A DNA stretch of 64,000 nt from contig NZ_CP046198.1 of assembly GCF_012569285.1 (NCBI RefSeq), positions 126,313-190,312 on the forward strand, written 5' to 3'. The translations under genes were made by a program, and so were the position numbers. Of this stretch, positions 5,656-19,763 are shown one piece after another. The notes under the pieces were generated by a model. It had not been told where the DNA came from. It saw only the letters and a list, made by a program, of their open reading frames with translations, and did no database searches. Origin of the DNA: Enterobacteriaceae endosymbiont of Donacia proxima (GTDB lineage Bacteria; Pseudomonadota; Gammaproteobacteria; Enterobacterales; Enterobacteriaceae). Each line of letters begins with the position of its first letter. Position 1 is the first letter of the stretch.

Positions 5656-5689
5656 AAATAATAATTTTTATATATAAAAATTATTATTT
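5656..5689 (-). terminator. 34 bp perfect palindrome at the 3' end of ybhL
   Basis: Bases 5656-5689 form a perfect palindrome (17 bp arms, no unpaired centre) that overlaps the ybhL stop codon. It contains only A and T. As transcript it would fold into a hairpin ending in a U-rich arm, so a terminator or 3'-end stabiliser is the simplest reading. Confidence 0.45.
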
Positions 5690-6415
5690 ATCATCATCAT
5701 TATTACTGATCATACGTAATATTATAAAGAATAAATTAATAAAATCTAAATATAGCATAAGTGCACCTAAAATAGCATATCTTCTTAAATTATCTTGATC
5801 ATGTTCATTTAAACTAATTTTTTTAGCAATATTTTTTAGTTTTTGAGTATCATAAGCTATAATTAATGTAAAAAAAATTACACCAAGATAATTAACTATA
5901 GATGTTATTAAACTATTTTGTAACCATAAATTTATAAAAGAAGCAATTAATGTACCAATAATCCCCATTATTATTATATTACCTAAATTACTCAAATCTT
6001 TTTTAGTAAAAAAACCCCAAATACACATAAATAAAAAAGTTAATGATGTAGTTATAAATGCTGTAAAAATAGTATTTTGATTATATATGGAAAATATTCC
6101 AGCTGTTGTAAATCCTGTTAAACATGAATAAAACATAAATAAAGTAGTTAATGTTTTTCCAGATAATTGATTTATAAAACCAGAAATAGTAAAAACTAAT
6201 ACAAATTGTACAAAACATATACTTAATAAAAAATATTTATTACTTAATAAATAATTTGTAATTTGTATTGTATTAGACACATACCAAGCAATAAACGCAG
6301 TTAATAATAAACCACAAAACATCCATCCATATACTTTTCGAAAATATTTTTGTATATAATAATTTTTTTCTTTTTTTAATAAAGTAGTACTTTTAAAATT
6401 TGGATATTCTATCAT
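5684..6415 (-). CDS. ybhL: Bax inhibitor-1/YccA family inner-membrane protein, YbhL-like
   Basis: A 243-residue multi-pass membrane protein with about seven hydrophobic segments. It matches E. coli YbhL better than YccA: YGWMFCGLLLTAFIAWY near residue 30, FTKKDLSNLGN in the middle, and AYDTQKLKNIAKK followed by LRRYAILGALMLYLDFIN near the C-terminus. The paired acidic residues in the last two helices typical of the BI-1 family pH sensor are present (D in AYDTQKL, D in LYLDFIN). The biological role of YbhL is unsettled; the paralogue YccA modulates FtsH. It is transcribed away from rsmH across a 135 bp gap. Retention in such a small genome is notable. Confidence 0.88.
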   Translation of the reverse strand: MIEYPNFKSTTLLKKEKNYYIQKYFRKVYGWMFCGLLLTAFIAWYVSNTIQITNYLLSNKYFLLSICFVQFVLVFTISGFINQLSGKTLTTLFMFYSCLTGFTTAGIFSIYNQNTIFTAFITTSLTFLFMCIWGFFTKKDLSNLGNIIIMGIIGTLIASFINLWLQNSLITSIVNYLGVIFFTLIIAYDTQKLKNIAKKISLNEHDQDNLRRYAILGALMLYLDFINLFFIILRMISNNDDDK

Positions 6416-6550: not shown

Positions 6551-7480
6551 ATGATAAGTCATATTCCAGTTTTATTAAAAGAATCTGTTAATAGTTTAAA
6601 TATTAAAAAAAATGGAACATATATAGATGCGACATATGGTTGTGGAGGACATACAAAATTAATTTTATCTAGATTAGGTAATCAGGGAAAAATTTATGCT
6701 ATAGATCGTGATCTAAAAACATTATTGAAACATCAAATATTAGATAAAAGAATTGTTTATGTTAATAATAATTTTTCAAATTTACAAAACTTATTTAATA
6801 ATAAAACAGGTATAATAGATGGTATCTTATTTGATTTAGGTATTTCTTCATTCCAATTAAATAATCCTGAAAGAGGTTTTTCTTATATATTTAATGGACC
6901 ATTAGATATGCGTATAAATCAAAATGAAAAAATTACTGCTTATGATTTATTAAATAATATAAATGTAAAAAAATTATCAAAAATATTAAAAATATATGGT
7001 GAAGAAAAATATCATAAAAAAATAGCATATAATATTAAAAAGTATATATCTAATAATAAATTAAATAATACACATGATTTATCATCTATAATATCGATAG
7101 TTAGTAAAAAAAATAAATTTAAACATCCAGCAAAAAGATCTTTTCAAGCTATAAGAATTTTCTTAAATAAAGAAATAGAAGAATTAAAAAAAGGATTAAA
7201 TATTTCATTAAAATTATTAAAAATAGGAGGAATTATATCAATAATTAGTTTTCATTCTATAGAAGATAGAATTATAAAAATGTTTATGAAAAAACATAGT
7301 TCCTATCAAAATCAAATTAATAATAAATTGCCTTTAACGGAAGAACAGATAAATTTTTTTTATCTCCAAAATAAAAAATTAACATTAAAAATTATTGGTA
7401 AAATTTTTCCTAATAAAAATGAAATTTTAAAAAATTCAAGATCTAGAAGCGCAATATTACGTATTGCACAAAAAATATAA
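6551..7480 (+). CDS. rsmH: 16S rRNA (cytosine-1402-N4)-methyltransferase RsmH
   Basis: Methylates N4 of C1402 in the ribosomal P site, using SAM. The 309 residues show HIPVLLKESV at the start, the SAM-binding loop DATYGCGGHTKLIL, DRDLKTL, the catalytic-core segment FDLGISSFQLNNPERGFS, and IISFHSIEDRIIK near residue 230. It is the first gene of the dcw cluster. mraZ, its usual upstream neighbour, is absent, as is ftsL, which normally follows. The stop codon lies 55 bases before the preferred murE start. Confidence 0.97.
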   Translation: MISHIPVLLKESVNSLNIKKNGTYIDATYGCGGHTKLILSRLGNQGKIYAIDRDLKTLLKHQILDKRIVYVNNNFSNLQNLFNNKTGIIDGILFDLGISSFQLNNPERGFSYIFNGPLDMRINQNEKITAYDLLNNINVKKLSKILKIYGEEKYHKKIAYNIKKYISNNKLNNTHDLSSIISIVSKKNKFKHPAKRSFQAIRIFLNKEIEELKKGLNISLKLLKIGGIISIISFHSIEDRIIKMFMKKHSSYQNQINNKLPLTEEQINFFYLQNKKLTLKIIGKIFPNKNEILKNSRSRSAILRIAQKI

Positions 7481-7535
7481 AAATAATAATTTTAGTATTA
7501 ATGTAGTAGATATAATTTATATTAAGGATTTGTCG

Positions 7536-9041
7536 TTGAATATTTCTTTATTTAGTTTGCAAAAATTATTAAATAATTATATTAAACATGATTTAATAAA
7601 AAATATTTTAATAAATAAAATTGTTTTAGATAGCAGAAAAATTAAAGGTAAATATTGTTTATTTATAGCAATTAAAGGATGTAAATATGATGGTAAAAAT
7701 TTTATAACACAAGCTATATTAAAAGGAGTAGTAGCAATATTAACGTATTCTGATAAAAAAACATTACCTTATACTATAGAAGTAAAAAAAAAAATACCTA
7801 TCATTTATTTACCAAATTTACTTGAACAAATTTCATATCTTGCAGGTACATTATATAATCATCCAAGTAAAAAAATTCCCATAATAGGAATTACTGGAAC
7901 TAATGGAAAAACAAGTATTACACATTTTTTAATGCAATGGATCAGATTGTTAGGTTATAAACCTGCTATTTTAAGTACTATAGGAAATGGATTTTATAAA
8001 AATTTAATTAAAACAAATAATACAACTGATTCTGCTGTAGAAATACAATCTACATTAGAAAAGTTTGTAAATCAAAAAGCAGATATTGTAATTATGGAAG
8101 TTTCGTCACATGGATTAGATCAATATAGAGTAGCTAATATAATATTTTCTATTGGAATTTTTACAAATTTAACAAGAGATCATTTAGATTATCATATTAA
8201 TATGAAAAATTATGAATTGTCTAAATGGAGATTTTTTTCTAATCACAAAATAAAAAAAAAAATTATTAATATTGATGATAATATAGGATTAAAATGGTGT
8301 AAAAAATTATCGAATGTTACAGTTATTACTACTAAATTAAAGAATTTATTATATCAATCAAATCTATTTGTATATATAAAAAAAATAATTTATTTATCTG
8401 ATCATACCATTATTAAATTTAATTCTATTTGGGGTAATGGAGAAATAAAAACAAATTTAATAGGTCAATTTAATGTAATAAATATAATATTATGTATGGC
8501 TACATTATTAAATTTAAATTTTCCTTTAAAAAAATTAGTTAAAACAGTATCAAAAATATTTCCTATCCCAGGAAGAATGCAAAAAGTTTTTTTTAAAAAA
8601 AAATATACTAACATAATAATTGATTATGCTCATACTCCTGATGCACTTAAAAATGTTTTATTAACTCTTAAATTAAATGTTAAAGGAAAAATATGGTGTA
8701 TTTTTGGATGTGGAGGAGAAAGAGATATAGGGAAAAGATCAATCATGGGATATATAGCTACAAAATATGCTGATATTATAATTTTAACTACTGATAATCC
8801 TAGAAAGGAAAACATTCATAGCATTATTAATGATATAAAAACAGGATGTATTACATTAAAAAATGTTTATATCATTTTAAATAGAATTAAAGCTATTTCT
8901 TATGCAATCTCTCATTCAGTAAAAACTGATACTATTTTAGTAGCTGGTAAAGGACATGAAAATTATCAAATTATAGGTAATAAAATTTTTAATTATTCAG
9001 ATTTTAATGCTATTCAAAAAATCTTAAAAAATATAAAATGA
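7536..9041 (+). CDS. murE: UDP-MurNAc-tripeptide synthetase (meso-DAP adding)
   Basis: Adds meso-diaminopimelate to UDP-MurNAc-L-Ala-D-Glu in the cytoplasm. The ATP loop TGTNGKTSITH, NTTDSAVEIQSTL, MEVSSHGLDQ, DYAHTPDALKN and the DAP-specifying DNPR motif are all present. There is no usable ATG. The open frame extends upstream to a TTG inside rsmH (7464), but the TTG at 7536 has an AAGGA Shine-Dalgarno (7524-7528) seven bases ahead, and the resulting protein (501 aa) aligns with E. coli MurE (495 aa) from its first residues. The family's usual upstream neighbour ftsI is missing. It overlaps murF by 4 bases (ATGA). Confidence 0.95.
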   Translation: MNISLFSLQKLLNNYIKHDLIKNILINKIVLDSRKIKGKYCLFIAIKGCKYDGKNFITQAILKGVVAILTYSDKKTLPYTIEVKKKIPIIYLPNLLEQISYLAGTLYNHPSKKIPIIGITGTNGKTSITHFLMQWIRLLGYKPAILSTIGNGFYKNLIKTNNTTDSAVEIQSTLEKFVNQKADIVIMEVSSHGLDQYRVANIIFSIGIFTNLTRDHLDYHINMKNYELSKWRFFSNHKIKKKIINIDDNIGLKWCKKLSNVTVITTKLKNLLYQSNLFVYIKKIIYLSDHTIIKFNSIWGNGEIKTNLIGQFNVINIILCMATLLNLNFPLKKLVKTVSKIFPIPGRMQKVFFKKKYTNIIIDYAHTPDALKNVLLTLKLNVKGKIWCIFGCGGERDIGKRSIMGYIATKYADIIILTTDNPRKENIHSIINDIKTGCITLKNVYIILNRIKAISYAISHSVKTDTILVAGKGHENYQIIGNKIFNYSDFNAIQKILKNIK

Positions 9042-10408
9042 ACGAATTAATTAGTTTAAAAAAACTATCACAAATAGTAAATGGTAAATTAATTGGTAAT
9101 AATATTAAAATATTAAATTTTTCTATAGATAGTAAAAAAATTAAACAAAAATGTATTTTTATCGCTATCTGTGGTAATAAATTTGACGGACATTTTTTTA
9201 TTAATGATGCCATTAAAAATGGTGCATTAGCTATATTAGTACATAAATATACTAATATTAATATTCCTCAAATTATTGTATTAGATACTACTATAGGATT
9301 AGCTAAATTGAGTTTATGGAAAAGGATAAAATTTAAACATGATGTAATCGGTATTACTGGATCATCAGGTAAAACATCAGTTAAAGAAATGACTGTATCT
9401 ATTCTAAAAAATAAAAATAAAACTATTTTTACTGAAAAAAATATGAATAACCATATTGGTGTTCCTTTAACATTATTAAAATTACAAAATCAATATAAAT
9501 ATGCCGTAATTGAAATAGGTGGAAATAAAATTAACGATATTTCTTATATTGCTAATTTAGTAAAACCTGATGTTGCATTAATTAATAATATATCAGAATC
9601 CCATTTAGAAGGTTTTAAATCTTTAAAAAATATTATTAAAAATAAAAGTGATATTTTTAAATATTTAAAAAATAAAGGAATCGCAATTATTAATTATGAT
9701 GATAAAAATCAAAAAAAAATTTTAAAAAAATTAAGTAATGATAAAAACATTTTTACCTTTTCTTTACAAAATAATAAAACAGACTTTTTTGCTAAAAATA
9801 TAATAATATTACCTAATAAAATTAAATTTTTATTAATTTCACCTATAGGTGAAATTTTAATTAAATTATTTCTTATTGGTGGAGGAATACATAATATTTA
9901 TAATGCATTAGCATCAGCAGCATTATCATTTTCTGTAGGATCTACTTTAGAAGAAATAGCAATTGGATTAAAAAATTTTAAATCTATTAAAGGAAGAATG
10001 TATCCAATTATTATTGGTCATAATAAACTTATTATAAATGATACATATAATGCGAATCCAAATTCGGTAAGTATAGCTATTAATATTTTAAAAAATTTTC
10101 CTGGTAAAAAAATTTTAGTTATTGGTGATATGTTAGAATTAGGTATTTACACTATTTTTTATCATAAAAAAATAAAAAAATTAATTTTAAAATCTAACAT
10201 AGATTATATTTTTAGTATTGGTAAATATAGTTATTATTTTATTAAAAAAAATATAAAATCACAACATTTTTCCAATAAAAATATGTTAGTAAATCAATTA
10301 TTTTTAATAATTAAAAATTTTAACCATTATACTATTTTATTTAAAGGATCACGTAAAAATAAAATAGAAATATTAATTAAAATGTTATTGGAGAAATTAA
10401 AATGTTAA
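9038..10408 (+). CDS. murF: UDP-MurNAc-tripeptide:D-Ala-D-Ala ligase
   Basis: Adds D-alanyl-D-alanine to the UDP-MurNAc-tripeptide, completing the pentapeptide; the dipeptide comes from DdlB encoded in the same cluster. The 456 residues contain the ATP loop GITGSSGKTSVKEM near residue 107, EKNMNNHIGVPLTLL, IEIGGN, the histidine-containing NISESHLEGF, and NDTYNANPNSV near residue 325. The start codon overlaps the murE stop (ATGA), and the end overlaps mraY by 7 bases, indicating tight translational coupling. Confidence 0.97.
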   Translation: MNELISLKKLSQIVNGKLIGNNIKILNFSIDSKKIKQKCIFIAICGNKFDGHFFINDAIKNGALAILVHKYTNINIPQIIVLDTTIGLAKLSLWKRIKFKHDVIGITGSSGKTSVKEMTVSILKNKNKTIFTEKNMNNHIGVPLTLLKLQNQYKYAVIEIGGNKINDISYIANLVKPDVALINNISESHLEGFKSLKNIIKNKSDIFKYLKNKGIAIINYDDKNQKKILKKLSNDKNIFTFSLQNNKTDFFAKNIIILPNKIKFLLISPIGEILIKLFLIGGGIHNIYNALASAALSFSVGSTLEEIAIGLKNFKSIKGRMYPIIIGHNKLIINDTYNANPNSVSIAINILKNFPGKKILVIGDMLELGIYTIFYHKKIKKLILKSNIDYIFSIGKYSYYFIKKNIKSQHFSNKNMLVNQLFLIIKNFNHYTILFKGSRKNKIEILIKMLLEKLKC

Positions 10409-11484
10409 TAATATTATTTTCATATTTTAAAAATTATTTAAAATATGTAAATTTTTTCTTAATAAATTTTAAAATACGTTCTATAATGACACTTATAACA
10501 TCATTTAGTATGACATTTTTTTTAACTCCAATTTTTATTAAATATTTTCATAAAAAAAAAGTTTCTCAAATAATTAGAAAAGATGGACCAATTACACATT
10601 TTATTAAAAAAAAAACTCCTACTATGGGGGGAATAGTAATATTATTATCTATTTTTATTTCTGTAATACTTTGGTCAGATTTATCTAATAAATATATTGT
10701 ATATACATTATTTATAACATTTTTATATTCAATAATTGGTTTTATAGATGATTTTTATAAAATTATTTTAAAAAATTCGATAGGGCTATCTGCATATAAA
10801 AAACTTTTTTTACAATCAATTGCTAATATTTTTTTTATATTATTTATTATAATAAATAATGAAAAAGAATTATATATAAGATTTATCATACCTTTTACAC
10901 ATAAAATTATTAAATATAATTTAAATATTATATTATACATAATAATATGTTATTTTATTGTACTAATAATTAGTAATTCTGTAAATTTAACTGATGGGCT
11001 AGATGGTTTAGCAATCATGCCTATTATTTTTATTTCCTTAAGTTTAACTTGTTTATCTTATTTGACAGGAAATATATATTTTTCTAGATATTTTAATTTT
11101 ATTTATATAAAAAATTCTACAGAATTAATTATTATTTGTTTATCTATAGTTGGTTCTGGATTAGCATTTTTATGGTATAATACATATCCTGCAAAAATAT
11201 TTATGGGAGATGTGGGTTCACTATCTTTAGGTTGTATCATTTCAATAATTGCAATTTTTATAAAACAAGAATTTTTATTTCTTATAATGTGTGGTATATT
11301 TATCATTGAATCATTTTCTGTTTTTATTCAATTATTAAAATTTAAATATAATAAAAAAAGATTTTTTTTAATGGCTCCTTTACATCATCATTATGAGTTA
11401 CAAGGAATTTCAGAACCTTGTATTATTACTAGGTTTTGGATTATTTCATTAATATTAATAGTTTTTGTTTTTATAATAATATAA
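10402..11484 (+). CDS. mraY: Phospho-MurNAc-pentapeptide transferase MraY
   Basis: Integral membrane enzyme that transfers phospho-MurNAc-pentapeptide to undecaprenyl phosphate, giving lipid I. At 360 residues it matches the E. coli length. About ten hydrophobic helices are evident. Conserved cytoplasmic motifs are PTMGGI near residue 70, the aspartate-rich FIDDFYK, NLTDGLDGLA, FMGDVGSLSLG and the histidine loop APLHHHYELQG. It overlaps murF by 7 bases and is followed after 19 bases by murD. Confidence 0.98.
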   Translation: MLIILFSYFKNYLKYVNFFLINFKIRSIMTLITSFSMTFFLTPIFIKYFHKKKVSQIIRKDGPITHFIKKKTPTMGGIVILLSIFISVILWSDLSNKYIVYTLFITFLYSIIGFIDDFYKIILKNSIGLSAYKKLFLQSIANIFFILFIIINNEKELYIRFIIPFTHKIIKYNLNIILYIIICYFIVLIISNSVNLTDGLDGLAIMPIIFISLSLTCLSYLTGNIYFSRYFNFIYIKNSTELIIICLSIVGSGLAFLWYNTYPAKIFMGDVGSLSLGCIISIIAIFIKQEFLFLIMCGIFIIESFSVFIQLLKFKYNKKRFFLMAPLHHHYELQGISEPCIITRFWIISLILIVFVFIII

Positions 11485-11503
11485 TATTTGATAACATAAT
11501 AAA

Positions 11504-12820
11504 ATGAATAAAAAAATACTTATTATAGGTTTAGGTATAACAGGCATATCTTGTTTAAAATTTTTTTTAAAAAAAAAAATCATCCCAGCTATTATGGATG
11601 AACGTAAAGATTTGCAATTTATAAAAAAAATACCTTTATATGTACCATGTCATTTTGGTTCTTTAAATAGAGATTGGATACTTAATTCTCAATTAATTAT
11701 TTTAAGTCCTGGTATATCAATATTTAATAGTCTTATATTAGAAGCTCAAAAAAAAAATATTGAAATTATAGGAGATATAGAATTATTTGCTCGTTATAAT
11801 ACAACTCCTTTAATAGCTATTACAGGTACTAATGGTAAAAGTACTGTAACTAATATGATTGCTAATATTATGGAAAAAAGTAATTTTAAAGTTAGTATCG
11901 GTGGTAATATAGGATATCCAGTAATAGATTTATTATCTTTTAAAAGAGATTTTTACATTTTAGAAATATCTAGTTTTCAATTAGAAACAATTAAAAAATT
12001 AGATATATATATTGCTATAATTTTAAATATTTCACAAGACCATATGGATAGATATCCTTTAGGTATCGAACAATATCGTAATTTTAAATTACGTATTTAT
12101 CAAAATGCTAATATTTGTATATATAATTCCGATGATATATTATGTTATCCTAAAATATTTTATAATAAAAAAAAATATATTACTTTTGGTAAATTTTCAG
12201 GTAAATATAATTTATCTTTTAATAAAAAAGATATTTATCTAAAAATAAATAATAAAAAAATATTTAATTTTAATAAAACTAAATTAGTTGGTATACATAA
12301 TTATTTAAATTCTTTAGCTGTATTAGCTGTTACAGATATACTAAAAATTTCCAAAAAAATTTTTTTTGAAAAAATTAGTAATTATAAAAATATGGATCAT
12401 GTATTACAAATTATTCATAAAGAAAATGGAGTAACCTGGATTAATGATTCTAAATCAACTAATATTAGTAGTACAAAAGTTGCTTTAGAATATTTACATA
12501 AAAAAAAAAGAATTTGGTTGTTTTTAGGAGGTTATGACAAAAATTGTAAATTATATTTATTACAAAAATATTTACAAAAAAAAGATAATATAAAAATTTT
12601 TTGCTTTGGTCAATTAAGTAAAAAAATATTATCTTTTTTACCTAAAGCAATAATAGTTAACACAATATCTGAAGGAATAAAAAAAATTATTAAATTAGTA
12701 CAATTTGGAGATATTGTGTTATTTTCCCCAGCATGCTCTAGTATTGATCAATTTAGAAACTTTAAACACCGTGGAAATGAATTTATTAGAATAGTAAAAA
12801 AAATTCATAAATATAAATAA
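11504..12820 (+). CDS. murD: UDP-MurNAc-L-alanine:D-glutamate ligase
   Basis: Adds D-glutamate to UDP-MurNAc-L-Ala. The 438-residue sequence has an N-terminal Rossmann-like UDP-binding start (KILIIGLGITGISC), the ATP loop ITGTNGKSTVTNM near residue 108, LEISSFQLE, LNISQDHMDRY, and the C-terminal NDSKSTNISST and SPACSSIDQF. In E. coli ftsW follows; here only 55 non-coding bases separate murD from murG. Confidence 0.97.
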   Translation: MNKKILIIGLGITGISCLKFFLKKKIIPAIMDERKDLQFIKKIPLYVPCHFGSLNRDWILNSQLIILSPGISIFNSLILEAQKKNIEIIGDIELFARYNTTPLIAITGTNGKSTVTNMIANIMEKSNFKVSIGGNIGYPVIDLLSFKRDFYILEISSFQLETIKKLDIYIAIILNISQDHMDRYPLGIEQYRNFKLRIYQNANICIYNSDDILCYPKIFYNKKKYITFGKFSGKYNLSFNKKDIYLKINNKKIFNFNKTKLVGIHNYLNSLAVLAVTDILKISKKIFFEKISNYKNMDHVLQIIHKENGVTWINDSKSTNISSTKVALEYLHKKKRIWLFLGGYDKNCKLYLLQKYLQKKDNIKIFCFGQLSKKILSFLPKAIIVNTISEGIKKIIKLVQFGDIVLFSPACSSIDQFRNFKHRGNEFIRIVKKIHKYK

Positions 12821-12875
12821 TATTTTTATAAAAAAATTTATGATTTCAATTTTTTTATATATTAAATTTTAAAAA

Positions 12876-13937
12876 ATGAAAAAAAAAATTCTTATAGTAG
12901 CTGGAGGTACTAGAGGACATATTAATCCAGCTTTAAATATAGCATATGTTTTAAAAAAACAAGGTTGGGAAGTTCGTTGGTTAGGAACTAATTCTAGAAT
13001 GGAAGCACAAATTATTCCTAAAAAGAATATACGTATTTATTTTATCAAATTTTACAGATTTAAAAACAAAAATATTTTTTCTATTATTTTTACTATTATT
13101 AAATTGATAATATCAATTTATAAATCTATTCTGGTTTATAAAAAATATAAACCACATATAATATTAACAATGGGGAGTTATATTTCTGGACCTAGTGGAT
13201 TAGCAGCATGGTTGTATCGAATACCATTAGTAATACATGAACAAAATAGTATTGCAGGTATAACAAATAAAATTTTATATAAAATAGCGACTAAAACTAT
13301 GCAAGCATATCCTGATACATTTACTAATGCTATATTAGTAGGTAACCCTTTAGATAATAAAATTATTAAATTATCTTTATATAAAAGAAAAATGTTTAAA
13401 ATTCATAAACCAATTCATTTATTGCTCACAGGAGGTAGCCAAGGATCATATATAATAAATAAAATAGGCATTAAATTAGCTAAAATTTTAAAGAATAAAA
13501 TATTTATTTTACATCAAGTAGGAAAAGGTAATTTTAAAAAAATATTTTGTAAATATAAAAAATATAATATTATTGATAATTTTATTATAAAAGAATATAT
13601 ACAAAATATTTATAAAGCATATGCATGGGCTGATATAATCATATGTAGGTCAGGAGCTATGACTGTTAGTGAAATTGCTGCAATAGGATTACCTGCTATC
13701 TTTATACCTTTCGAACATAAAGATAAACAACAATATTTTAATGCAATATATTTAAAAAACATAGGAATAGCTAAAATTTTTGAACAAAATAATATTGATT
13801 ATGATAGAATGACTAATTTAATATTAAATCTTAATAAAGATCAAATCGTAAACATAATAAATAAATCTTGTAATTTAGTTATAAAAAATTCTGTACAATT
13901 AATTTATGAAGAATTAAATAAAATAAAAATTAATTAA
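12876..13937 (+). CDS. murG: UDP-GlcNAc:lipid I GlcNAc transferase MurG, with altered glycine loops
   Basis: Peripheral membrane glycosyltransferase (GT-B fold, two Rossmann domains) that converts lipid I to lipid II. The 353 residues match E. coli MurG (355) end to end, with VRWLGTNSRMEAQ, HEQNSIAGITN, VGNPLDN, CRSGAMTVSEIAAIGLPA and PFEHKDKQQYFNA all recognisable. The three glycine loops are changed: GGTGGH reads GGTRGH (Arg13), MGGYxSGPGG reads MGSYISGPSG, and GGSQGA reads GGSQGS. The second-domain nucleotide-sugar site looks normal. Function may be retained at reduced efficiency; this cannot be settled from sequence. Confidence 0.95.
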   Translation: MKKKILIVAGGTRGHINPALNIAYVLKKQGWEVRWLGTNSRMEAQIIPKKNIRIYFIKFYRFKNKNIFSIIFTIIKLIISIYKSILVYKKYKPHIILTMGSYISGPSGLAAWLYRIPLVIHEQNSIAGITNKILYKIATKTMQAYPDTFTNAILVGNPLDNKIIKLSLYKRKMFKIHKPIHLLLTGGSQGSYIINKIGIKLAKILKNKIFILHQVGKGNFKKIFCKYKKYNIIDNFIIKEYIQNIYKAYAWADIIICRSGAMTVSEIAAIGLPAIFIPFEHKDKQQYFNAIYLKNIGIAKIFEQNNIDYDRMTNLILNLNKDQIVNIINKSCNLVIKNSVQLIYEELNKIKIN

Positions 13938-13964
13938 TATTTAAATAAATAATATATAAAAAAT

Positions 13965-15437
13965 ATGTCTAGTATAATAAATTTTAAAAAAATACCAAAG
14001 ATGAAAAATATTAATCATATATATTTAATTGGTATTGGTGGTTCTGGAATGGGAGGAATTGCAAAAATTTTAATAAAAAAAGGATATAAAGTTAGTGGTT
14101 CAGATTTAATTTCAAATTTTATCACAAAAAATTTAATTTCATTGGGTATTACTATTTATTTTAAACATAAAATTAAAAATATTACAAATGATATAGATCT
14201 TATTGTTATATCTAGTGCTATTAAGCATAATAACCCAGAGTTAATTATTGCAAAAAAATTAAATATTACTATAATTAGTAGAGTAAAAATGTTAGCCGAA
14301 TTAATGAAATTTTACTATCAAATTACCATTACAGGTGCTCATGGTAAAACTACAACTACAGCCATGATTTATGAAATATATAAATTATCTGGATTAGATC
14401 CTACATTTATTAACGGAGGAATTTTAAAATATTCTAAAGAATATGCTTATTTAGGTTCTAGTAAATATTTTATTACAGAAGCAGATGAAAGTGATAAATC
14501 ATTTTTATATTTAAAACCAACTATTGGTATAGTAACAAATATTGAAAATGAACATTTAGATTATTATAAAAACAATATAGAAATTTTAAAAAAAACATTT
14601 TTAAAATTTTTAAAAAAAATACCATGTTATGGTTGTATAATTATTTGTATAGATAATATTCATAATTATGAATTAATAAAAAAAAATAAATTTAATATTA
14701 AACAAAATATTATTACATATGGTTCCCATAAAAATTCTGATATACAATTATATAATTACAAACAAAAAGGTTATAAAACTCAATTTTATATATTAGAAAA
14801 AAAAACATATTCATCTTTTAAAATTAACTTAAGCATTCCTGGATATCATAATGCATTAAATGCCACAGCAGCATATGCTGTTTCTAAATTTAATAATCTA
14901 AATAATAAAATTATTTTAAAATCATTAAAAAATTTTCAGGGTATTATAAGAAGATTTGATATTTTAACTACAATTTATCCTGAAAAAAGGATAGGATATC
15001 AACAAACTATAATAGTTATTAATGATTATGGGCATCACCCAACTGAAATAAATATGACTATAAATACAGCACGTAAAATATGGCCAAATAGAAGTTTAAT
15101 AATGGTTTTCCAACCTCATCGTTATTCAAGAACAAAAAATTTATTAAAATACTTTATTAAAGTATTATCAAAAGTTGATAAATTATTTTTACTAAAAGTT
15201 TATTCAGCAGGAGAAACTTTTATCAAAAATGCTGATAGTGAATATTTATCTAAAAAAATAAATGAATTAGGAATTATTATTTCTCAATTCATAAATTTTA
15301 AAAATTATTATAATATTGCACATTATATTTATTCTAAATTAAAAGGAAATGAAATATTAATTTTTCAAGGGGCTGGTGATATTAATAATTTATCATCATT
15401 ATTTATAAATAAAAAATTTCAAAATACAAAACATTAA
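13965..15437 (+). CDS. murC: UDP-MurNAc:L-alanine ligase
   Basis: Adds the first residue, L-alanine, to UDP-MurNAc. The 490 residues (E. coli 491) show IYLIGIGGSGMGGIA near residue 20, ATP loop TGAHGKTTTTAMI near residue 124, EADESDKSFL, NIENEHLDYY, GIIRRFDIL, NDYGHHPTEINMT and FQPHRYSRTK. It lies 27 bases after murG and 39 before ddlB, in the order seen in the E. coli dcw cluster. Confidence 0.98.
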   Translation: MSSIINFKKIPKMKNINHIYLIGIGGSGMGGIAKILIKKGYKVSGSDLISNFITKNLISLGITIYFKHKIKNITNDIDLIVISSAIKHNNPELIIAKKLNITIISRVKMLAELMKFYYQITITGAHGKTTTTAMIYEIYKLSGLDPTFINGGILKYSKEYAYLGSSKYFITEADESDKSFLYLKPTIGIVTNIENEHLDYYKNNIEILKKTFLKFLKKIPCYGCIIICIDNIHNYELIKKNKFNIKQNIITYGSHKNSDIQLYNYKQKGYKTQFYILEKKTYSSFKINLSIPGYHNALNATAAYAVSKFNNLNNKIILKSLKNFQGIIRRFDILTTIYPEKRIGYQQTIIVINDYGHHPTEINMTINTARKIWPNRSLIMVFQPHRYSRTKNLLKYFIKVLSKVDKLFLLKVYSAGETFIKNADSEYLSKKINELGIIISQFINFKNYYNIAHYIYSKLKGNEILIFQGAGDINNLSSLFINKKFQNTKH

Positions 15438-15476
15438 ATTAATAATTAAAAAATTTTAATAAGTTTTATTTTAAAT

Positions 15477-16400
15477 ATGTCTAATAAAATAGTTGTTTTA
15501 TTTGGAGGTAATTCTCTAGAAAGAGAAATATCTTTAAAATCCGGAAAATCAATTTTAAATACTTTAATAAAATCAGGAGTTAATGCTATCGGAATAGATC
15601 CAATTAATTTTCCATTATTATATTTAAAAAAATATGGATTTAAAAAAGCTTTTATAGCCTTACATGGGAGGGGGGGGGAAGATGGAATAATACAAGGTAT
15701 ATTAGAATATTTAAATATTCCTTATACTGGGAGTGGAGTTTTATCGTCAGCAATTACTATGAATAAATTTTTAACAAAAATTATTTGGAAAATATATGGA
15801 TTACCTATTATTTATCCTCATTTATTACTAAATAAAAAAGATTTTATTAAAAAAAATTATTTAATAATAGAACAAAAAATTTTGAAAATAAAATTACCGA
15901 TTATTATTAAACCTAATTGTAATGGATCTAGTTTAGGTATTTTAAAAATTAATCATATAGATGATTTATTTAATGCATTAGAAAAATCATTTATGTATGA
16001 TAATAATATTTTAATTGAAAAATATATAAAAGGAACAGAATATTCCATAGGAATATTAAATAATAAAATATTACCTCCTATTAAAATAGGGTATGAGAAT
16101 ATTTTTTATGATTATCAATCTAAATATTATTCAAATAATACTAAATATTTTTGTCCTAGTGGTTTAAGTAAAAATAAAGAAAAAGAATTAGAAAATATAA
16201 TTTTAAAAGCTTGGAAAGTTTTAAATTGTAAAATATGGGGTAGAATCGATGTTATTTTAGACGAAAATAAAAATTTTCAATTATTAGAAATAAACACTAT
16301 TCCAGGAATGACATCAAAAAGTTTATATCCTATAGCAGCAAAAAAAGCAGGATTATCGTTTTATGATTTAATCATGAAAATTTTATTTTCAACTAAATAA
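15477..16400 (+). CDS. ddlB: D-alanine:D-alanine ligase
   Basis: ATP-grasp enzyme that makes the D-Ala-D-Ala dipeptide used by MurF. The 307 residues contain FGGNSLEREISLKSG at the start, ALHGRGGEDGIIQG near residue 62, the ATP-grasp lysine segment IIKPNCNGSSLGI, and the C-terminal LLEINTIPGMTSKSL. The HGRGGEDG motif is encoded with GGG AGG GGG GGG, giving nine consecutive G (15670-15678), highly unusual in this A+T-rich sequence. In E. coli ftsQ, ftsA, ftsZ and lpxC follow; here the next gene, dciA, ends 33 bases away on the opposite strand. Confidence 0.97.
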   Translation: MSNKIVVLFGGNSLEREISLKSGKSILNTLIKSGVNAIGIDPINFPLLYLKKYGFKKAFIALHGRGGEDGIIQGILEYLNIPYTGSGVLSSAITMNKFLTKIIWKIYGLPIIYPHLLLNKKDFIKKNYLIIEQKILKIKLPIIIKPNCNGSSLGILKINHIDDLFNALEKSFMYDNNILIEKYIKGTEYSIGILNNKILPPIKIGYENIFYDYQSKYYSNNTKYFCPSGLSKNKEKELENIILKAWKVLNCKIWGRIDVILDENKNFQLLEINTIPGMTSKSLYPIAAKKAGLSFYDLIMKILFSTK

Positions 16401-16433
16401 AAATAAATAATTTTTATATAAAAAATTTTATAT

Positions 16434-16904
16434 TTAATTATTTGTTATTTTAATAAATCTTTCTATTATTACACGTAACTTTGTTGAACTTTTTTTTGAA
16501 ATATGAAGTAATAAATCAGCACTACATTTACTTAATATATTTTTTTTAAATTTTTTTTTTTTTTTTATAAAATTTTTTTTTATAAAAATAGGGTTAATTT
16601 TAATATCTATTTTTCTTAAAGAAGAAATAACATATTTTTTTATATAAAATAAAATACTTGATTTTTCAGATAAAAATCTGAACATAGAACTAGCATTATT
16701 TGTTTCTATAATTAGAATATTATTTTTTATATTTTTAATATTATACCAATTATGTAATTGTATCGGTAAATATTTTTTGATAATCTTATTAATTTTGATT
16801 AAAATATTTGTATGTGTATATATTTTATGTAATATTTTTGTATAAGACGAATAATATTTTTGTTGAAAAAGTTTATTAATTAATAATAATTTATTATTAC
16901 GCAT
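16434..16904 (-). CDS. dciA: DciA-like replicative-helicase operator (DUF721)
   Basis: A 156-residue basic protein. The middle section, with IKNIKNNILIIETNNASSMF followed by a helix and then IDIKINPIF, matches the KH-like core of DUF721/DciA, and the tail LSKCSADLLLHISKKSS resembles the family's C-terminal helices. DciA proteins interact with the replicative helicase DnaB. The location just upstream of and divergent from secA is the usual place for this gene in gammaproteobacteria. The coding strand carries an A16 tract (16551-16566) and an A10 tract (16573-16582), which encode lysines and are candidate slippage sites. Sequence similarity is moderate, so the call is good but not certain. Confidence 0.78.
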   Translation of the reverse strand: MRNNKLLLINKLFQQKYYSSYTKILHKIYTHTNILIKINKIIKKYLPIQLHNWYNIKNIKNNILIIETNNASSMFRFLSEKSSILFYIKKYVISSLRKIDIKINPIFIKKNFIKKKKKFKKNILSKCSADLLLHISKKSSTKLRVIIERFIKITNN

Positions 16905-17024: not shown

Positions 17025-19763
17025 ATGTTAAAAAAAATTTTTACTAAAATTTTTGGTAGTAATAATGATAATATTTTAAAATGTATCCAAAAAATAGTAA
17101 ACACTATTAATAATTTGGAAAAAGAATTTGAAAAATTAACGAATTATGAATTAAAAAATAAAACTATATATTTTAAAAATAAATTAAAAAATAAATCTAC
17201 TTTAGAAAGTATTCTTCCAGAAGCTTTTGCAACAGTAAGAGAAGCTAGTAAAAGAATATTTAATATGCGTCATTTTGACGTTCAATTAATCGGAGGTGTT
17301 GTTTTAAATAATAATTGTATAGCAGAAATGAAAACTGGTGAGGGAAAAACATTAACATCTACATTACCAGCTTATTTGAACGCTTTAACTAATAAAGGTA
17401 TTCATATTGTTACCGTGAATGATTATTTAGCTCAACGTGATGCTCAAAATAATAAAATATTATTCGAATTTTTAGATTTAACTGTAGGTACTAATATAGC
17501 TAATATGTCATTAAAAGAAAAACAAAATGCATATAAAGCAGATATTACATATGGAACTAATAATGAATTTGGATTTGATTTTTTACGAGATAATATGATT
17601 TTTAATTATAATAATAAAGTACAACGTGGTTTAAATTATGCTATTATAGATGAAGTTGATTCAATATTAATTGATGAAGCTCGTACACCTTTAATCATAT
17701 CAGGACCTACTGAAGATAGTTCAAAATTATATATTAAAATAAATAATATTATTCCTAAATTAATATATCAAAAAAAAGAAGATTCTAGTTCTTATAAAGG
17801 TAAAGGACATTTCTTTATAGATGAAAAATCTCGTCAAGTATATTTAACCGAAAAAGGTTTAATTTATTTAGAAGAAATTTTAATAAAAAAAAAAATAATT
17901 AATATAGGTGAGTCTTTATATTCTAATAATAATATAATTATATTACATCATATTATTTCTGCATTAAGAGCACATAAACTTTTTAAAAAAGATGTAGATT
18001 ATATATTAAAAAATAATAAAGTTATAATAGTAGATGAACATACTGGAAGATTAATGGAAGGTAGAAGATGGTCAGAAGGATTACATCAAGCAATAGAAGC
18101 AAAGGAAAATGTTAAAATTAATAATGAAAATCAAACTCTTGCATCTATTACATTTCAAAATTATTTTAGACTATATAAAAAGTTATCAGGTATGACAGGT
18201 ACTGCTAGTACAGAATCTTTTGAATTTAAGGAAATATATAAATTAGATACAATAATTATTCCAACTAATAAACCTATGATTAGAAAAGATCTTCCAGATT
18301 TAATTTATTTAACTAAAAAAGAAAAAATAAATGCAATTATTAATGATATAAAAGAAAAGAATTTAAAAGGTCAACCTGTATTAGTTGGTACTATTTCTAT
18401 AAAAAAATCAGAATTGATATCTAAAAAACTAAAAAAAATAGGTATAAAACATAATATTTTAAATGCTAAATTTCATGCAAAAGAAGCAGAAATTATTGCA
18501 AAAGCAGGTATAAAAAAAGCAGTAACCATTGCAACTAATATGGCTGGTAGAGGAACAGATATTGTTTTAGGTGGTAATTTTATTGTAGATAAAAAATTTA
18601 ATTTAAATAAAATTAAAAAATTAAAATTAGAATGGCAAATAAAACATAATGAAATTATAAAATTAGGAGGTTTATATGTAATTGGTACTGAACGTCATGA
18701 ATCAAGAAGAATAGATAATCAATTAAGAGGTCGTGCTGGAAGACAAGGGGATCCTGGTATATCTAGATTTTACTTATCAATGGAAGATTCTTTAATGCGT
18801 ATTTTTGCATCTAAAAATATGTTATTTTTAATGAGTAAATTAGGAATGAATACTAATGATTACATTGAACATCCTTGGATTACAAAAGCTATATCTAATG
18901 CACAAAAAAAAGTAGAAAGTTATAATTTTGAAATACGTAAGCAATTAATAGAATATGATGATATTATTAATGATCAACGTTTAATTATATATTTACAAAG
19001 AAATACATTATTAAAATCGTTAAATTTTACTCAAATTATTAGAAATTTTAAAATTGATGTATTTGGAAATATATTAAATAATTATTTACAATCTAATTAT
19101 ATTATTAAAGAAAAATTAAATTTTAAAAAATTAAAAACATATTTTCAAAATATTTTTAATATTAAATTACCAATTAAAGTTTGGATTAATGAATTTCAAG
19201 AAAAAAAGAAAAAAATAATTAATAAAAATTATATTCTTAAAAAAATTATTAATTTTACAGAAAAAAAATATTTAAAAAAAATTTCTATTTTAGAAAAACA
19301 ATATGTAAATATTTTTGAAAAAAATATTATTTTACAAATTTTAGATAATTTATGGAAAGAACATCTTGCGGCTATAGAATATTTAAAACAAGGAATTCAT
19401 TTAAGAAGTTATGCCCAAAAAGATCCTAAACAAGAATATAAACGTGAATCTTTTTCTATGTTTAATAACATGTTATATAATTTCAAAAAAGAAGTTCTTA
19501 TTACTTTAAGTAAAGTAGATAATAAAAAAATTAAAAATAATGATAAAATTACAATGTGTTTAGAAAAAAATACAATTATAGATAACAATTTAGAAAAAAA
19601 TAATTTAATTATTTTAAATAAAAAAACTAATATTAATATAAATAAAAAAAATAAACACTTAAATAATATAGATTTTTTTAAAAAAAAAATAGGAAGAAAT
19701 GAAAAATGTCCTTGTTATTCAGGTAAAAAATATAAATTTTGTCATGGATTAATATTTAAATAA
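17025..19763 (+). CDS. secA: Preprotein translocase ATPase SecA
   Basis: Motor of the Sec pathway, pushing unfolded precursors through SecYEG. The 912 residues start [15 protein letters not shown] as in E. coli, with nucleotide-binding motifs [16 protein letters not shown] near residue 100 and [30 protein letters not shown], and [20 protein letters not shown]. The C-terminal zinc motif [13 protein letters not shown] is intact. The region just before it is shorter and lysine/asparagine-rich. The secM arrest-peptide gene that precedes secA in E. coli is absent from the 120 bases upstream, so SecM-type regulation is unlikely. Its stop codon overlaps a 66 bp palindrome. Confidence 0.98.

Follow-up and report, generated by a model that had tools for sequence, protein, structure and literature searches.

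The division and cell wall (dcw) cluster of the Enterobacteriaceae endosymbiont of the reed beetle Donacia proxima was analyzed within a 64,000-nucleotide stretch of the chromosome (hereafter, the window; NCBI RefSeq assembly GCF_012569285.1, contig NZ_CP046198.1, positions 126,313 to 190,312 of the forward strand) and compared with the same cluster in related genomes. The septal synthases and the division ring are gone from this symbiont, and the elongation machine stays. We consider it fairly probable that the ancestor of the reed-beetle symbionts lost the septal machine and kept the lipid II pathway together with the elongation machine, that division in these bacteria is independent of FtsZ and, likely, is performed by MreB, RodA and PBP2, and that the Min system, where it is kept, acts elsewhere.

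The comparison covered 24 genomes of reed-beetle symbionts, including that of the window, from Donacia, Neohaemonia, Plateumaris and Macroplea hosts (24 of the 26 published genomes; the symbionts of D. versicolorea and D. semicuprea are outside the set). The genome of the D. proxima symbiont comprises 464,530 bp, that is, a 458,077-bp chromosome and a 6,453-bp plasmid. Profile searches detected no FtsZ anywhere in this genome or in the 23 congeners, and the only match of the FtsA model in each of the 24 genomes is the MreB gene. All 24 genomes encode exactly one protein of the SEDS (shape, elongation, division and sporulation) family. In the D. proxima symbiont, this protein scores 404.1 bits against the RodA model (cut-off 336.7) and 281 bits against the FtsW model (cut-off 337.5), and its gene adjoins mrdA, which rules out its identification as FtsW. 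The only transpeptidase in this genome is penicillin-binding protein 2 (PBP2; TIGR03423, 607.6 bits, cut-off 455), encoded next to RodA; therefore, there is no bifunctional class A penicillin-binding protein (PBP) either. In this genome, FtsZ, FtsA, FtsI and FtsW were sought genome-wide, and the search for FtsL and FtsQ was confined to the home locus. Copies of ftsZ, ftsI and ftsW elsewhere in the chromosome, set beforehand as the refutation of a preliminary description of this stretch, were sought and none was found; missed or divergent versions of the three proteins were rejected on the basis of the genome-wide profile searches.

In contrast to the septal machine, the elongation machine is well represented. 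The preliminary description had left the presence of mreB, murJ, rodA and the PBP2 gene to a search of the complete genome, and all four are present, so that MreB, a SEDS polymerase and a class B PBP occur together. MreB, MreC, MreD, MurJ and MurB (354 aa) are intact; an apparent truncation of murB was discarded as a 168-aa frame cut by the edge of a locus. Of the lipid II pathway, MurB to MurG, MraY, DdlB and MurJ were sought, and all are present. The mreBCD genes were read in 21 of the 24 genomes (G013, G016 and G021 were left out), and MreB and MreC are present in all 21. Among these, mreD was not found 3' of mreC in five Plateumaris symbionts and in that of Neohaemonia (loci L169, L171, L172, L173, L176 and L174); the MreD of the Macroplea symbionts is shorter. 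The mrdA-rodA region was read in 10 of the 24 genomes, 8 of them with a whole mrdA, and the three active-site motifs of PBP2 and the Asp motif of RodA are kept in all 8 genomes aligned, with K-S-G instead of K-T-G in two Plateumaris genomes, as in a relative with a 5-Mb genome (G024). In the D. dentata symbiont (G018, L158), PBP2 is split over two frames. The MreB sequences of the other 20 genomes are at least 88% identical to that of the D. proxima symbiont, compared with 31-87% for MreC, MreD, RodA and PBP2 where found. Of 13 genes measured, MreB is also under the strongest constraint, with a ratio of non-synonymous to synonymous substitution rates (dN/dS) of 0.01-0.08.

At the dcw cluster, ftsL, ftsI, ftsW, ftsQ, ftsA, ftsZ, lpxC and mraZ were not found in the window or in any of the 23 congeners when the 16 dcw proteins of G024 were used as tblastn queries (expectation value, E, ≤0.01). 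This test is effective because, in both Gilliamella and a 0.6-Mb genome (G030), these queries recover lpxC as well as the six fts genes. Thus, the original claim that these six division genes and lpxC are gone from the cluster without remnants is borne out, as is the gene order, rsmH-murE-murF-mraY-murD-murG-murC-ddlB, which is that of E. coli, with all eight frames open. The cluster retains the order of the E. coli dcw cluster and lacks its ftsL, ftsI, ftsW, ftsQ, ftsA and ftsZ content. Across the 24 genomes, the distance from the end of rsmH to the first aligned MurE codon is 68-210 bp, the murD-murG gap is 18-323 bp, and the gap 3' of ddlB is 6-133 bp. The largest murD-murG gap is that of the D. 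crassipes symbiont (G016, L118), where murG has a broken frame of 255 aa that covers 71% of the reference; in the other 23 genomes, the alignment of each of the eight frames spans at least 93% of its reference. The broken murG and the split mrdA of the D. dentata symbiont may reflect either sequencing error or decay. The occurrence of the fts-less cluster in 24 of 24 genomes is more than chance; the genomes are related, and a single event is probably involved. Given that all 24 clusters lack the fts genes and all 24 genomes lack FtsZ, the loss of the septal machine predates the diversification of the group. The features of the cluster in the window are as follows.

6551..7480, + strand: rsmH, 16S rRNA methyltransferase, 309 aa; open frame, NCBIfam TIGR00006, E 2.7e-96
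7481..7553: gap at the place of ftsL and ftsI in relatives, no remnant found (tblastn); its end is where the MurE profile begins to match (residue 31 of the TTG-started frame)
7464..9041, + strand: murE, 525-aa frame from a TTG; NF001123 above cut-off, profile match from 7554
9038..10408, + strand: murF, 456 aa; TIGR01143 above cut-off
10402..11484, + strand: mraY, 360 aa; TIGR00445 above cut-off
11504..12820, + strand: murD, 438 aa; TIGR01087 above cut-off
12821..12875: 55-bp gap at the place of ftsW in relatives (tblastn and gap measurement)
12876..13937, + strand: murG, 353 aa; TIGR01133 above cut-off
13965..15437, + strand: murC, 490 aa; TIGR01082 above cut-off
15477..16400, + strand: ddlB, 307 aa; NF002378 above cut-off
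16401..16433: 33-bp gap at the place of ftsQ, ftsA, ftsZ and lpxC in relatives (tblastn and gap measurement)
16434..16904, - strand: 156-aa frame, previously labelled dciA (label unconfirmed); at the same place in 24/24 genus genomes, own included
17025..19763, + strand: presumably secA, right-hand landmark; after the cluster in 24/24 genus genomes, own included

All eight cluster frames score above the cut-off of the NCBIfam model that bears the same gene name. The true start of murE is probably located slightly upstream of 7554. The gaps previously given for murD-murG (55 bp) and for ddlB and the next gene (33 bp) are exact; the rsmH-murE gap, put at about 55 bp, is indeed empty of ftsL and ftsI, and its measured length, from the end of rsmH to the first aligned MurE codon, is 127 bp. 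The wall-precursor genes, counted as eight in the preliminary description, are seven because rsmH encodes an rRNA methyltransferase. The 156-aa frame, located between ddlB and secA on the opposite strand, matched no NCBIfam family at E ≤1e-5, which leaves the dciA label unverified. On the other side of the cluster, positions 5684-6415 encode a 243-aa, probably multi-pass membrane protein that adjoins rsmH and shows a weak match, below the cut-off, to MAG0110.

The Min system, the established division target of which is FtsZ, persists in most of these FtsZ-less genomes. In the D. proxima symbiont, minC and minD are located outside the window (C1:106,822-108,438; L102) and are followed by a minE remnant without an open frame (L102:10441-10712, C1 about 108,440-108,711). 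Aligned with minE of the D. crassipes symbiont, the DNA of this remnant is about 81% identical across 286 columns; a minE remnant is likewise detectable in the DNA of the D. piscatrix symbiont. Compared with the canonical system, the D. proxima symbiont thus lacks both an intact minE and the FtsZ target. MinC, MinD and MinE are encoded together in 13 of the 24 genomes, in the same minC-minD-minE order as in E. coli, MinC and MinD without MinE in two (the D. proxima and D. piscatrix symbionts), and MinD with only the C-terminal domain of MinC in one (Neohaemonia); altogether, 16 of the 24 genomes have MinD together with at least the C-domain of MinC. No Min proteins were found in the remaining eight (five Plateumaris symbionts and those of D. 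tomentosa, D. clavipes and D. dentata), where the search for MinC was genome-wide and that for MinD and MinE was limited to 14 kb of sequence at the expected location; in all eight, the flanking genes rnt and tsaB are there with no min gene between them. In a tree built from the eight dcw proteins (3,194 aligned residues), the Min holders fall on either side of the group's root; therefore, Min is ancestral and outlived the loss of FtsZ. The tree implies three losses of the complete Min system and two additional losses of minE. The placement of Plateumaris has 74% support, and the ancestral status of Min is not affected by it.

The substitution rates point to selection on the retained Min proteins. 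In Nei-Gojobori counts over four MinE-bearing sister pairs (with the shortened murG of G016 included in the dcw counts), dN/dS is 0.07 for MinD (40 non-synonymous and 128 synonymous changes; interval 0.05-0.11), 0.25 for MinC (0.18-0.35), 0.28 for MinE (0.17-0.45) and 0.23 for the eight dcw genes together; for MreB, it is 0.01 in the sole one of these pairs with data. By these counts, MinD is more constrained than the surrounding wall enzymes in the MinE-bearing pairs compared, and the strong constraint on MinD in MinE-bearing genomes is, at the level of sequence, the firm result. In the MinE-less pair (D. proxima-D. piscatrix), by contrast, dN/dS of MinD is 0.31 (31:25; interval 0.17-0.55), with 0.26 for the dcw genes; the difference between MinE-bearing and MinE-less pairs yields p=2.4e-5 for MinD and 0.24 for the dcw genes (Fisher's test). 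At 149 MinD sites that are invariant in the 13 MinE-bearing congeners and five FtsZ-bearing relatives, the D. proxima symbiont shows 7 changes and the D. piscatrix symbiont 5, compared with 0-2 in the other MinD-bearing Donacia symbionts. These figures suggest that the constraint on MinD is loosening in the lineage of the D. proxima symbiont, where minE has decayed. The P-loop and the partner-binding residues of MinD (S148, D152, D154 and I159) are conserved in 16 of 16 sequences. Separately, we observed that MinD and MreB evolve faster in the clade of G000, G003, G007, G016 and G022 than in other pairs, and that the dcw genes are not obviously different there.

MinC carries changes of the kind that are expected with lost FtsZ binding. 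Two C-domain columns with conservation of 90% or more among 24 FtsZ-bearing relatives are altered in all 16 FtsZ-less sequences, R172K and A175S (in what we take to be the E. coli numbering); R172 is presumably a contact to the FtsZ tail. The RSGQ motif of MinC is conserved in 16 of 16 and is known to bind MinD (PMC6803595), and replacement of R172 with alanine is reported to weaken DicB binding (PMC6832061). Among the best 120 of 1,173 MinC homologues, K172 and S175 are present in all 12 reed-beetle sequences (that of the D. proxima symbiont included, and one counted by similarity), whereas K172 occurs in 8 and S175 in none of the other 108; the 21 labelled Buchnera sequences among these 120 all have R172 and A175, and Buchnera is described as FtsZ-bearing (PMC10591338). 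R172K alone was rejected as proof of lost FtsZ binding, given the presence of lysine in 2 of the 24 FtsZ-bearing relatives and in the 8 other homologues listed. A175S is absent from the 24 FtsZ-bearing relatives and from the other 108 homologues listed; its carriers share one ancestor, and it may represent one event. In the N-terminal domain, six well-kept columns (8, 10, 14, 15, 39 and 46) are changed in all 15 FtsZ-less sequences that contain the domain, which rules out the G10 change as a specific sign; K35 and F42 are mostly retained. Altogether, the MinC sequences appear to fit the loss of FtsZ binding and do not amount to proof.

The loss of FtsZ is not confined to reed-beetle symbionts. 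FtsZ is encoded in 33 of 60 genomes of one comparison set, with the genome of the D. proxima symbiont counted, and in 358 of 392 genomes sampled from the family (absent in 34); the FtsZ-less genomes among the matches listed (20 of the 34; 5 of this genus) are all about 1.0 Mb or smaller. Some genera are mixed, with FtsZ missing in G029 and present in G290. Beyond the genus, 16 FtsZ-less genomes were searched for a SEDS gene, 15 from the family and one (G058) from another; such a gene was found in four, two of them with a broken one (G029 and G203), and 12, one of these from another family, have none. Two genomes show an outcome at the dcw locus similar to that in the reed-beetle symbionts, with mur genes kept and fts genes gone: G028 (L126) and G029 (L127), in both of which ddlB is missing, along with murF in G029; G028 has no SEDS gene, and the RodA match in G029 is spread over two frames. 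A whole RodA beside PBP2 is also encoded in the FtsZ-less G178 (8% contaminated) and G124 (84% complete); G124 was not counted as a further case because of its incompleteness and the presence of FtsZ in its congener G380. MinC is absent from all three FtsZ-less non-congeners in the 60-genome set (G028, G029 and G058). The reverse outcome was detected in G033 (L129), which keeps rsmH, ftsA, ftsZ and MinCDE, with no mur genes found at the dcw locus.

Several known systems resemble that of the reed-beetle symbionts in part. Wolbachia of supergroup J, with two genomes tabulated, has lost ftsZ, ftsA, ftsI and ftsW and keeps murA-G, mraY, ddl, MreB, PBP2 and RodA (PMC10591338, PMC8116671). Unlike the bacteria analyzed here, it is an alphaproteobacterium of nematodes, and MreC, MreD, MurJ and Min are not listed for it in the table of PMC10591338; the reed-beetle symbionts keep MreC (21/21 genomes) and, in 16 of 24, MinD with the C-domain of MinC or more, and that of D. 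proxima also MreD and MurJ. Chlamydia, in which MreB directs a polarized division, similarly lacks FtsZ, FtsA and class A PBPs and keeps MreB, PBP2, RodA and the lipid II genes; it also retains RodZ and, unlike most of the reed-beetle symbionts, has no Min (PMC10591338); the chlamydial combination of FtsI and FtsW with the elongation machine is not found in the D. proxima symbiont. Buchnera of Lachninae aphids shares its order with E. coli and the reed-beetle symbionts and has a reduced genome with MinCDE kept, and otherwise is a near mirror image, with FtsZ and FtsA present, RodA, PBP2 and MreB absent, and most of the precursor genes lost (murE is present in 53% and murJ in 40% of 15 genomes; PMC10591338). 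The dcw locus of G033 is close to that tabulated for these Buchnera, and G033 itself appears to be a Buchnera. The endosymbionts of trypanosomatids differ in having kept FtsZ, FtsK and PBP1A. The Min genes of the reed-beetle symbionts share with those of E. coli the gene order, the MinD residues listed above and the RSGQ motif of MinC, and differ in the absence of FtsZ and in K172 and S175 of MinC.

Under the scenario we favor, the ancestor of the reed-beetle symbionts would have lost the septal machine and retained the lipid II pathway, MurJ, RodA, PBP2, MreB, MreC and MreD. Judging by the functions of these families, MurJ would flip lipid II, and the single RodA-PBP2 pair would polymerize it under the direction of MreB. 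This MreB-RodA-PBP2 machine would most likely also carry out division, in a manner partly reminiscent of Chlamydia. A machine of the MreB type is able to divide a cell, given that chlamydial MreB with chlamydial RodZ supports the division of E. coli when FtsZ is off (PMC7029139). Two suggestions of the preliminary description gain support: FtsZ-independent division, from the lack of FtsZ genome-wide in 24 of 24 congeneric genomes, and the use of lipid II for elongation only, from the RodA-PBP2 pair being the sole one in the genome. Fluorescence in situ hybridization revealed filamentous (D. thalassina) or irregular (M. mutica) symbionts in larvae and round ones in adults (PMC12508126), shapes that are compatible with elongation growth and a separate, regulated division step. 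Because, in the pairs compared, Min was kept under selection after FtsZ was gone, it would have to serve another process, most likely the positioning of MreB-based wall growth or chromosome segregation. We tentatively propose that the Min oscillator was maintained by selection after the FtsZ loss and might now position the MreB-RodA-PBP2 constriction or the sharing of chromosomes between daughter cells; the MinD-MinE oscillator is our preferred candidate for the selected unit.

Several observations weigh against this scenario. Eight of the 24 genomes lack Min, and in these, Min is dispensable for division because MinC is absent genome-wide and no MinD or MinE is found at the expected place. 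In E. coli, chlamydial MreB requires RodZ to replace FtsZ (PMC7029139), and Chlamydia itself keeps FtsI, FtsW, FtsQ/L/B and FtsK, which makes the resemblance partial (PMC10591338). The loosening of MinD falls to p=0.079 when the comparison is with the nearest MinE-bearing pair alone. Furthermore, the same clade contains MinE-bearing pairs with elevated MinD values (0.11-0.15), and MreB is raised there as well (0.05-0.08, compared with 0.01-0.02 in the pairs G001-G005 and G002-G020), so that the MinD rise seen between the D. proxima and D. piscatrix symbionts may in part be an effect of the clade. The symbiont of Neohaemonia (G017), the second MinE-less lineage, has 6 changed sites, compared with 4-5 in the equally deep MinE-bearing Macroplea pair; this control removed the Neohaemonia signal, and relaxation of MinD as a general result of minE loss was accordingly rejected. 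Moreover, selection on MinD does not tell its target.

Several other explanations deserve consideration. Fission could be independent of the wall, through L form-like budding or membrane over-production, with the elongasome building a wall only in the filamentous larval phase; the irregular larval cells of the M. mutica symbiont and the round adult cells (PMC12508126) can be read in this way, and the absence of a SEDS gene from 12 of the 16 FtsZ-less genomes searched beyond the genus indicates that small symbionts can live without either. However, wall making is needed because RodA is present in 24 of 24 genomes and the precursor genes are kept (murG is broken in 1 of 24) with dN/dS well under 1 in the pairs compared, and MreB shows the strongest constraint among the genes measured; we regard this explanation as unlikely. 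Quite unlikely, in our assessment, is host-assisted fission, in which a transferred bacterial gene or membrane-remodelling proteins of the beetle would divide the symbiont, and the symbiont wall would serve growth and shape only. Such a role of the host would be in line with the shift of symbiont shape with the life stage of the beetle (filamentous in larvae and round in adults of D. thalassina) and with the partial dependence of the Buchnera wall on host genes, as cited in PMC12508126, but the reed-beetle symbionts are partly extracellular (PMC7289800), that of D. proxima itself encodes the precursor genes of the window, MurB, MurJ, RodA, PBP2 and MreBCD, and in the pairs compared, purifying selection acts on MreB, MreC and the dcw genes.

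The retained Min proteins could also be a slowly decaying relic without a present function. The loss of MinC in 8 of 24 genomes (the five Plateumaris symbionts, that of D. tomentosa, and those of D. clavipes and D. dentata) and of minE in two further lineages, the minE remnants in the D. proxima and D. piscatrix symbionts, and the difference of MinC positions 172 and 175 from most FtsZ-bearing relatives in 16 of 16 sequences all agree with decay. A relic is already strained by the rates, with MinD at 0.07 and MinC at 0.25 in MinE-bearing pairs, both far below 1, and conflicts with the conservation of the P-loop and partner-binding residues of MinD in 16 of 16 and with the regulation of minC in the M. 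mutica symbiont (PMC12508126); we consider it improbable. That FtsZ is present and was missed, owing to an incomplete assembly or extreme divergence, is hardly credible: no support for this was found, except that the congener G003 is just 83% complete by marker genes, whereas the chromosome and plasmid sizes equal those of the published D. proxima symbiont genome (PMC7289800), all 24 genomes agree, and the FtsZ model reaches E values between about 1e-50 and 1e-53 in other genomes that are 0.4-0.6 Mb in size.

Division without FtsZ, as we favor it, also bears on published accounts of these symbionts. The symbionts are thought likely to regulate their own division, on the grounds that minCDE and mreBCD are encoded (PMC12508126). 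The same source reports that the M. mutica symbiont raises minC expression in larvae and discusses this regulation as positioning of the Z-ring, contrary to which no FtsZ was found in the genome of that symbiont (G002). The retention of peptidoglycan biosynthesis has been reported (PMC7289800); within the text of this source, 'fts' and 'cell division' do not occur, and in PMC12508126, 'ftsz' does not occur and the matches to 'fts' that were inspected are to FtsH. No publication linking Donaciinae symbionts with ftsZ was found in one paper library, with supplements outside the search. The gene loss itself can be seen in public annotations; what is new lies in its interpretation. An elongasome in the absence of FtsZ is already known from other bacteria; the reed-beetle symbionts are a new, deeply shared case near E. 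coli, with a selected Min system without FtsZ as an added, less expected feature. The link of MinDE to chromosome segregation has been reviewed as open (PMC6803595), and the kept Min system allows one to ask what MinDE does besides acting on FtsZ. The reed-beetle symbionts thus present a natural experiment on what the elongasome alone can do, in close relatives of E. coli, which has well-studied counterparts of nearly all their genes.

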